DNA of 28,556 nt. Source: a virus. The notes under the pieces are model-generated. The model saw only the letters and a program-made list of their open reading frames with translations. It searched no databases and had not been told where the DNA came from. Where the stretch lies: IMG/VR virus record IMGVR_UViG_3300032829_000033, positions 1-28,556 of that record; one strand, written 5' to 3'. A program made the translations under genes and the position numbers. Positions 5,969-8,174 of this stretch are shown here, one piece after another; the stretch's first letter is position 1, and the number at the start of each line of letters is the position of its first letter.

Positions 5969-6469
5969 CTATCCAAAGAAAGTTATCGGCAAGCTGTGCG
6001 AGAGAATCGGGTGCTGTTCTCGATGTCCTACAATGTGCTCCTGAAACCATGGGCGGGTAATCTTGTTCAAGTCGGCCCAGAACAACGCACTTTGCGGCGG
6101 CGGAGCCATGGGCCTGCGCCCCAAAGCATCGGCGCGTGGCAGGGCAAATTGCACACTCGGCAGGCTGGTAACGGTATCGCGCAGGGCACCGGAATAAACG
6201 CGCTCCACTTGCGGCACCAGGGCCCGAAAGTCCGGGTCATCCACGGCTGGCAGGCTGCGAAAATCCAGTTCATCCAGATTGTTGGCTGCATGCATAGGGA
6301 AGGAATCGATGATTTGCAGCCAATCGCCGCCATGCCATCCTGCCAGCACGCGGTTATGAATCACATGGCAAATGCCCAATGCCGCATCCCGATTGCCCGG
6401 TGCCAGTCGCTTGCCTTCACGCCAGCCGAGCAGGGCCAATTGCGAGATTACGAAATCTCCAACGTTCAT
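5969..6469 (-). CDS. SleB-like (Hydrolase_2) cell-wall hydrolase candidate, 166 aa
   Basis: ATG 6469 gives MNVGDFVISQLALLGWREGK. The early W-R-E-G (16-19), then AALGICHVIHNRVLAGW (29-45), match the pattern of SleB/Hydrolase_2 proteins: a catalytic Glu (here Glu18) in a W/Y-x-E context, followed by an A-x-x-x-V-x-x-N-R-V helix. These enzymes cleave peptidoglycan glycan strands. The C-terminal half is Pro-rich and not recognisable. There is no signal peptide and the ribosome binding site is weak. It is the first gene of this - strand block, facing the + strand island. The family match is moderate; a structural virion role is the alternative. Confidence 0.5.
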   Translation of the reverse strand: MNVGDFVISQLALLGWREGKRLAPGNRDAALGICHVIHNRVLAGWHGGDWLQIIDSFPMHAANNLDELDFRSLPAVDDPDFRALVPQVERVYSGALRDTVTSLPSVQFALPRADALGRRPMAPPPQSALFWADLNKITRPWFQEHIVGHREQHPILSHSLPITFFG

Positions 6470-6513
6470 TTTATGCTTGACAATCTTTCAGTGTGTGTGC
6501 GAGAGTGTGCGTC
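6470..6513. promoter_or_regulatory. Divergent intergenic region with phased repeats
   Basis: Only 44 bp separate the - strand hydrolase gene and the + strand zinc-ribbon gene. It holds a perfect TTGACA (6477-6482) reading toward the + strand and two copies of GTGTGCG starting exactly 10 bp apart (6495 and 6505). I find no good -10 at 17-bp spacing. Both flanking genes have weak ribosome binding sites. Confidence 0.35.
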
Positions 6514-6633
6514 ATGGCAAAGACACAAGGACAACCAGTTTGCCCGCAGTGCCAAAGCAAACAGGTGATTTTCTTGAAAAAGAAGAATGCCTTTTTGTGT
6601 CGGCGCTGTGGTAATGAATGGCCAAAGAAATGA
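6514..6633 (+). CDS. 39-aa zinc-ribbon protein
   Basis: ATG 6514 to TGA 6631-6633 encodes 39 residues beginning MAKTQGQPVCPQCQSKQVIF. CPQC (10-13) and CRRC-G (29-33) form a C-x2-C-x15-C-x2-C zinc ribbon with a beta-hairpin-like spacer (VIFLKKKNAFL) and a Trp near the end (GNEWPKK). Such ribbons bind DNA, RNA or polymerase subunits, as in TFIIB/TFIIS-type and IS1-type ribbons. It lies 104 bp upstream of the 192-aa gene in the same direction, against the strand of the surrounding late genes, so the two may form a small operon. Confidence 0.7.
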   Translation: MAKTQGQPVCPQCQSKQVIFLKKKNAFLCRRCGNEWPKK

Positions 6634-6737
6634 GCCTTCATGTCGATGCTTTACTTGCCCTTTCTCGCCGACTCCATGCCGAACGAGTCATCGCTTTGCT
6701 CGTCAAACCACTTCATCTTTTTACCTAGGAGGGTAAA

Positions 6738-7316
6738 ATGCACCGAACCTTTCACATCACTATCGAAGGCATCGCGCCTTTGATCCAAGACAACCCGAAA
6801 GAATCTGATCTGGCCCAGCTTACCGGGAACAAGAAGAAAACCGCATCTCGCCAAGAAAAGGGCGAGGAATGGCGTAACAAGGTGTATGCCGTCGATGGCA
6901 AACTGTGCCATCCGGCGCGCGCGTTTGAGACATTGGTCAAGGATGCGGCCAAGAACTTCAAGGGTCGCGGCCGCGCATCCATGAAAGAAACCGTTCGGCA
7001 GACTTGCTGGGTCGATGGCTCTTGGCTGGAGATCACGAACCGCAAGGAACCCGATGAGGTCATGGTTAGCACACCGCAGACCATGAGCGGCCGCGTCCCT
7101 GCTTACCTGCCTGTATTCAAGGCGGGCTGGCGCATGGAGTTCGACTATCAATTGACCGATGATGAGATCGTCACTCCGGGTCATTTGCATGAAATCATTA
7201 GCTGGGGCGGGCAGCGCATTGGATTAGGCAAAGCTGCGTATCGTCCCAAGTTCGGCAGATTCATTGTTGTAGGTTTTGAAGAAATTGATGCCAAAGCAGC
7301 GGCATCTCCAAATTAA
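6738..7316 (+). CDS. Conserved phage-type protein, possible RAMP/Cas7-like fold, 192 aa
   Basis: ATG 6738 has a textbook ribosome binding site (AGGAGG at 6727-6732, 5-nt spacer). The protein begins MHRTFHITIEGIAPLIQDNP: a strand, then G-x-x-P-L-I, like the strand plus P-L-L start of RAMP/Cas7-type proteins. It continues with a basic region (NKKKTASRQEKGEEWRNKVY), a DGKLCHPARAFETLVKDAAK stretch resembling a D-G-x-x-x-P-x-x-x-x-x-x-L-x-x-A-A motif, and a Gly/Arg-rich C-terminal motif GGQRIGLGK then YRPKFGRF (157-174). I associate this order of motifs with an uncharacterised phage family. The fold link is an inference. Nucleic-acid binding is plausible from basic and Gly-rich loops; no catalytic residues are obvious. 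Confidence 0.55.
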   Translation: MHRTFHITIEGIAPLIQDNPKESDLAQLTGNKKKTASRQEKGEEWRNKVYAVDGKLCHPARAFETLVKDAAKNFKGRGRASMKETVRQTCWVDGSWLEITNRKEPDEVMVSTPQTMSGRVPAYLPVFKAGWRMEFDYQLTDDEIVTPGHLHEIISWGGQRIGLGKAAYRPKFGRFIVVGFEEIDAKAAASPN

Positions 7317-7376
7317 ACTCGCCGATTCGACTCCTATCTGGCCCATACTGGCCTGCGCGAATCAAAACTGACCTGA
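7317..7376. terminator. Convergent intergenic spacer with weak hairpins
   Basis: The 60 bp between the + strand 192-aa gene and the - strand 265-aa gene contain GATTCG (7324-7329) paired with CGAATC (7358-7363), and inside it GGCC (7340-7343) with GGCC (7350-7353). An A-run follows at 7364-7367. Termination is inferred from convergent position; the stems are short. Confidence 0.25.
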
Positions 7377-8174
7377 TCAAGGCATCCACAAAGCGGAGGC
7401 GTCAGATCTCTCAAGGATCTGGCGCTTTCCTTTTGCAATCTCGCTCGGAACCGGGTAGGCGTAAGCATCGGTCCTGAGATGGTCGTAGCCATCGCCACAG
7501 GCGCAGAGCTGCTTGCGGCACTCTGGGCAGCGACCGTTGCGCAAGATAAACAGCTTGCGATGCCATGGCTTAGAGCGCGGCGAATTCTCCGGTTCGCCGA
7601 ATACTGCATTGGCCTGCTCGACATTGATAATTCCATTGCCAATCAGGGCCAACAGAACGGCCCGCCAGCCCCTTTTGCGCTCGCTCAATGCGACCCCATG
7701 ACTGTCGAAACGGAACTGTGACCATTCCGCCATGTTGCCGTTTTGAACTGACACGCCCGAATAAGTCGGCACGCCATTCTGCATGAAGCCCAAGCCCCTT
7801 AATCCCAGATAGGACACTTCAGCCAGAAAAGCATCCGGGCGAATAATCTGCAGAAGACGGAGAAATTCTCCCATCCACAGGATCCGGCCGGGATGCCACT
7901 GCTCAAGCTCGGACTGGAACGGCAGGCGCTGCTTGCGCACGGCATCGGTATTTTCTTCCTGCAGCTGCTTCGTGAATTCATCGGTGCGGGTATCCGGCTT
8001 GCGCTCGCGGCAACGCTGCTCGAATTCATCGATTTGCTTGGCCAGTTCAGCATCCAAGGGCTGCTCTGTGGCATCGTCCTGAAAGCCCTGCCCGGGCTGG
8101 CTGTCGTCGATTTCGATGGCACCGCGCGCCTTAGCTTCGCGGCGAAATTCTTCTAGCTTCTCAATATCGCTCAT
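7377..8174 (-). CDS. Hypothetical protein with C-terminal Cys cluster, 265 aa
   Basis: ATG 8174 overlaps the stop of the upstream gene (ATGA). The N-terminal third is highly charged and likely coiled coil (EKLEEFRREAKARG, then QIDEFEQRCRERK). A middle globular part (100-190) is hydrophobic (ILWMGEFLRLLQIIRPDAFL, then AVLLALIGNGIINVEQANAV). Near 216-226 CPEC and CAC followed by Gly-Asp suggest a metal-binding site. It is the last gene of the ejection-protein block. I do not recognise the family; a virion or morphogenesis role is inferred only from its neighbours. Confidence 0.65.
   Translation of the reverse strand: MSDIEKLEEFRREAKARGAIEIDDSQPGQGFQDDATEQPLDAELAKQIDEFEQRCRERKPDTRTDEFTKQLQEENTDAVRKQRLPFQSELEQWHPGRILWMGEFLRLLQIIRPDAFLAEVSYLGLRGLGFMQNGVPTYSGVSVQNGNMAEWSQFRFDSHGVALSERKRGWRAVLLALIGNGIINVEQANAVFGEPENSPRSKPWHRKLFILRNGRCPECRKQLCACGDGYDHLRTDAYAYPVPSEIAKGKRQILERSDASALWMP

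Follow-up and report, generated by a model that had tools for sequence, protein, structure and literature searches.

Gene content and layout of the locus

The DNA analysed (the window) is a 28.6-kb virus record, IMGVR_UViG_3300032829_000033, taken over its full 28,556 nt. The surrounding region is carried on the - strand and encodes structural proteins (terminase, portal, major head protein and tail proteins); within it, between - strand genes at 5969-6469 and 7377-8174, lie two + strand genes. Both open reading frames were verified where an initial annotation had placed them, as an opposite-strand pair in a late region. The feature extends beyond the span of 6514-7316 given by that annotation, from ~6478 to 7434, and takes in a pair of non-coding arrays, one on each side of the larger gene, both of which had been missed (Table 1). 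The larger gene is preceded by the ribosome binding site AGGAGG and is called vipr here for the homology described below.

Table 1. Features of the cassette, with positions counted from the first base of the window
Feature	Position	Strand	Basis
Gene for 39-aa zinc-ribbon protein, first gene of the cassette	6514..6633	+	ORF; weak zinc-ribbon Pfam matches
Candidate vrRNA1, 16 pentads NNNNC, between the zinc-ribbon stop and the vipr RBS	6635..6714	+	Period-5 run
8-bp hairpin after array 1, containing the vipr RBS	6719..6738	+	-6.8 kcal/mol, z -1.5
vipr, 192-aa predicted RAMP (Cas7-like) protein	6738..7316	+	phrog_4652, 36pp_D, AlphaFold2 model
Candidate vrRNA2, 14 pentads NNNNC, from the vipr stop codon	7314..7383	+	Period-5 run
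15-bp hairpin followed by a T-rich stretch	7395..7429	+	-26.4 kcal/mol, z -5.3
TTGACA, possible -35 element before the zinc-ribbon gene	6477..6482	+	Sequence reading; weak

A sigma-70 promoter scan returned no full site at the cassette, which leaves the TTGACA element as a weak -35 candidate. No match was obtained in an Rfam search of the whole window, no CRISPR-type direct repeats were present in the locus and no cas genes were recognised near vipr, its neighbours being the zinc-ribbon gene and phage structural genes. Among GenBank phages the portal protein matched only that of Tunturiibacter phage Tunturi_3, so the host of the phage is probably an acidobacterium. Two repeats of another kind occur toward the end of the window: a perfect 29-bp direct repeat (918-946 and 1336-1364, 418 nt apart), with copies between or within small + strand ORFs, and a 28-nt repeat (79%; 1433-1460 and 1647-1674) that spans the ribosome binding site and start of consecutive small + strand ORFs of 66 and 62 aa.

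The 265-aa and 166-aa genes that flank the cassette have homologs in two related phages (G004/L100 and G005/L103), where these are about 66 and 27 nt apart. No vipr was found in the records of either phage, and the hairpin at 7395-7429 is absent at the equivalent place in both (2/2). Because the flanking genes are adjacent in these relatives, the cassette is, judged by gene order, an insertion (moron) of about one kilobase among the late genes.

The 39-aa protein carries a CxxC...CxxC pattern and would be 46 aa long if translated from an upstream GTG start. Its zinc-ribbon Pfam matches were weak (best 7e-6, with PF12760 at its cut-off). The two genes had been proposed as a conserved pair, and this linkage is not kept in related loci: 9 of 87 loci carry small zinc-ribbon-like ORFs no more than 1.5 kb from vipr, these ORFs differ in sequence, kind and place, and no clear homolog of the window's zinc ribbon was found near vipr among the 87, only weak matches in phages. 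The protein may be a local accessory (vap-like) protein; the window contains no homolog of vap1.

Homology and predicted fold of the 192-aa protein

The motifs on which the initial annotation had based a RAMP/Cas7-like fold (GxxPLI, GGQRIGLG and RPKFGRF) are present in the 192-aa protein and are conserved family motifs in an alignment of 57 sequences. The protein matched phrog_4652 (unknown function) at 5e-14, as did all 57 aligned family members; the earlier mention of an uncharacterised phage protein family was thus correct as annotated, and the family can now be named Vipr. A profile built from the 57 sequences gave one strong match in the PDB, over the whole length, to 36pp_D ("SUSP1 Vipr protein", 3e-47); the window protein as a single sequence matched the same chain at 1e-4. 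Distant homologs with about 27% identity are found in Felixounavirus phages. An IMG/VR search with a small alignment recovered 290 relatives; single-protein searches of IMG/VR and GTDB genomes found no close ones. A nearest-kin profile search returned L008 and L009 only, and 3 of 399 genomes of the Edaphobacter class contained Vipr relatives, none of them close.

Neither the window protein nor any of the 57 relatives matched a Cas or RAMP family in Pfam. The AlphaFold2 model of the 192-aa protein (pLDDT 88.8, pTM 0.84) has a single RRM-like RAMP core with a G-loop; its best Foldseek matches were Csm3 and Cas7-like subunits (8e-6), and VIA-align placed it on Csm3/Cas7 subunits with Z of about 13 over about 160 residues. 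Structure prediction and fold search therefore bear out the RAMP/Cas7 suggestion, as does the homology to SUSP1 Vipr, and by homology and model the protein is a divergent Vipr protein with this fold.

Pentad arrays flanking vipr

VIPR systems combine a Vipr protein with vrRNAs in which 9-16 pentads, each with a fixed GGY and a free NN, follow one another in tandem (PMC13142463). In the window, C recurs at every fifth base in the two arrays on either side of vipr, read on its strand, and no other period-5 identity run in the 28.5-kb window reaches 9. Their lengths of 16 and 14 fall, at the DNA level, inside the published range. The longest period-5 run in 300 Markov-1 simulated windows was 12. 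In 1.09 Mb of control sequence there were 3 runs of at least 14, all in short tandem repeats, and no non-repeat run of that length. Two of the 3 belong to one pentapeptide-repeat gene split across the ends of a contig in G004 (L099:1-104 and L102:4050-4138), whose 15-nt repeats mimic an every-fifth-C signal; these runs were rejected as vrRNA, and the gene can usefully serve as a negative control when scanning for vrRNA. The window arrays are not built of repeated 15-mers and are located between genes.

The C is present in 30 of 30 pentads, the composition of the remaining four columns is near random in each array, and GG is not kept. If the fixed C is taken as the Y of GGY, two C-periodic arrays with otherwise near-random columns mean that, as read from the sequence, the pyrimidine has been kept as C and GG is gone, leaving four free bases per repeat. 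Assignment of the arrays to the + strand follows the usual orientation in the family, the order of the genes, and the hairpin at 7395-7429 with its T-rich stretch; vrRNAs encoded on the reverse strand, with G at every fifth base, are possible.

Hairpins follow both arrays, with differing sequences, and only the second is significant. The first, not significant alone, could be a tail of vrRNA1 or a translation switch. The second, which falls within the 3' end of the opposite-strand 265-aa gene, is probably a terminator or the 3' tail of the cassette transcript; a simple terminator scan did not report it.

Repeat motifs and tree position among related loci

A period-5 array above threshold was found beside vipr in 85 of 86 related loci, mostly GGY/NN and on the vipr strand. 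Partial reductions of the motif occur. Five loci (L014, L015, L029, L046 and L048), four of them in one clade, have GY/NNN repeats in arrays downstream of vipr (e.g. L014:6269-6368). GNY/NN repeats, in which G and Y are kept and the middle G is lost, are found at L240 (2040-2120) and L242, two loci of one Edaphobacter-class genome (G341) with nearly identical repeat stretches and a longer G-loop (FRPENRGIWGRF). The window shows the furthest reduction among the loci seen, and no second C/N4 array like its own was found among the relatives; a weak C-rich array at L081 was considered and not counted, its runs being short. A separate array at L073:5139-5218 is the reverse case, GGA/NN, with A in place of the pyrimidine in 16 of 16 pentads and GG mostly kept.

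The window Vipr stands on a long branch and joins L008 and L009 with support of 81. Because the repeats of these two loci are GGC/NN, the loss of GG in the window repeats looks derived, as far as the tree goes. The G-loop of the window protein has 2 extra residues (GLGKAAYRPKFGRF vs GIGDWRPKFGRF), unique among family members; a pattern scan of viral contigs recovered the window protein itself and no other carrier of the insert. In the window protein alone, L replaces the near-invariant arginine R124; the protein also lacks R122. That these residue changes are tied to the loss of GG is no more than suggestive, since a single lineage is concerned and R122 is missing too in some family members with full GGY repeats.

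Target searches

In published VIPRs each NN dinucleotide pairs with double-stranded DNA, one base of the target is passed over before the next dinucleotide, and the complex acts as a repressor of competing phages and satellites (PMC13142463). Targets of the window arrays were sought in sequenced material; targets in unsequenced competitors are possible. Sixteen reading rules applied over 1.07 Mb of collected loci gave best scores at chance level, the window's own arrays apart. Exact 16-base cores were searched against viral contigs, those of array 1 read as NN and as NNNN (one skip) and those of array 2 read as NN (one skip), and the hits extended no further than expected by chance. A search of the 399 Edaphobacter-class genomes with 13 dinucleotides, allowing 3 mismatches at most, found no target.

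Interpretation

From protein homology, predicted fold and array anatomy, the locus is read as a VIPR cassette in which the repeat motif has been reduced to one fixed base (probability about 0.88). A single + strand transcript would yield the zinc-ribbon protein, Vipr and two vrRNAs. Copies of Vipr, one to each pentad if Cas7 is a guide, would coat each vrRNA and grip the fixed C of every pentad, and variable bases of the pentads would pair with matching double-stranded DNA in a competitor (phage, satellite or prophage), where binding of the Vipr-vrRNA complex would block transcription of the target gene. The initial annotation had offered a nucleic-acid-binding or host-takeover pair; nucleic-acid binding fits and is predicted here, and host takeover gives way to the DNA of a competing element as the likely target, reached through the flanking vrRNAs.

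Because the window repeats keep one fixed letter, not the usual three, the targeting code of this cassette may differ from the published one. Either two bases would still be read, the grip on GG having been lost, or the number read out of the four free bases would be larger. The former, in which three positions per pentad are skipped (xxC) and the GG preference has disappeared along with the protein contact, is given an even chance. Every published VIPR that has been tested reads two bases and skips one (PMC13142463), the nearest relatives of the window have GGC/NN repeats, and the changes in the G-loop and at R124 could have no effect beyond relaxing GG recognition. Against this, no fitting target was found in the sequences searched, and retention of the published code alone gives no reason for near-random drift at both former GG positions.

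A C/NNNN code, in which one base is gripped and three or four others are read against DNA and which is tied to the changes in the G-loop and at R124, is put forward as a tentative proposal that is rather unlikely to be correct. Such a code would be denser, part-way between that of known VIPRs (2 of 5) and that of CRISPR, whose crRNA is read at 5 of every 6 bases (PMC13142463). Where it refers to its fig. S17, PMC13142463 allows GGY/NN "or a related consensus", so the C/NNNN motif may already be familiar to its authors.

A decayed or inactive VIPR, with the GG of the vrRNA lost by mutation and a protein that no longer works, would account for the long branch and the lost near-invariant arginine. 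It is improbable, as decay would erode the C and the reading frame too; the intact ORF and the C in every one of the pentads suggest continuing selection. Since a pentapeptide-repeat gene of a related phage gives the same signal, a period-5 C alone is no proof of a vrRNA, and the protein could be a RAMP-fold protein of other function (e.g. stand-alone RNA-binding, Cas6-like) beside stretches that are C-periodic by coincidence or coding, an explanation with very little probability given that the window stretches lack repeated 15-mers and lie between genes on either side of vipr, where the family has its arrays.

VIPR was described only in 2026 and is a proposed ancestor of CRISPR. As read here, the VIPR cassette of the window combines one-fixed-base repeats with changes in the RNA-binding loop, a natural test of which Vipr residues read which repeat base. 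It also tests whether a subunit can come to read more or fewer bases, a step needed for a 2-of-5 code to become a 5-of-6 one. On this reading VIPR is now placed in a phage of probable Acidobacteriota hosts, as an inserted cassette of one kilobase.

Comparison with known systems

The closest characterised system is the type II VIPR of Escherichia phage SUSP1 and Felixounavirus (PMC13142463; PDB 36pp), with which the window shares a homologous RAMP protein, a minimal phage-borne locus, and pentad arrays of 9-16 repeats on both sides of the gene and on its strand. The window protein differs in sequence (about 27% identity to the Felixounavirus homologs), in its G-loop (+2 residues) and in R124L, and the repeats are C/NNNN rather than GGY/NN; in place of a vap1 homolog the window has a zinc ribbon, and its cassette is inserted among late genes. 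The GY/NNN and GNY/NN loci belong to the same family and have likewise lost part of GGY; they keep two fixed bases per pentad, whereas the window keeps one, and the GY/NNN loci are not its nearest kin in the tree. With Csm3/Cas7 of the type III and type VII CRISPR effectors, the window Vipr shares the predicted RAMP fold, the G-loop and the size of a backbone subunit; unlike them, it has no Cas sequence-family match, and neither a CRISPR array nor another cas gene was recognised close to it.
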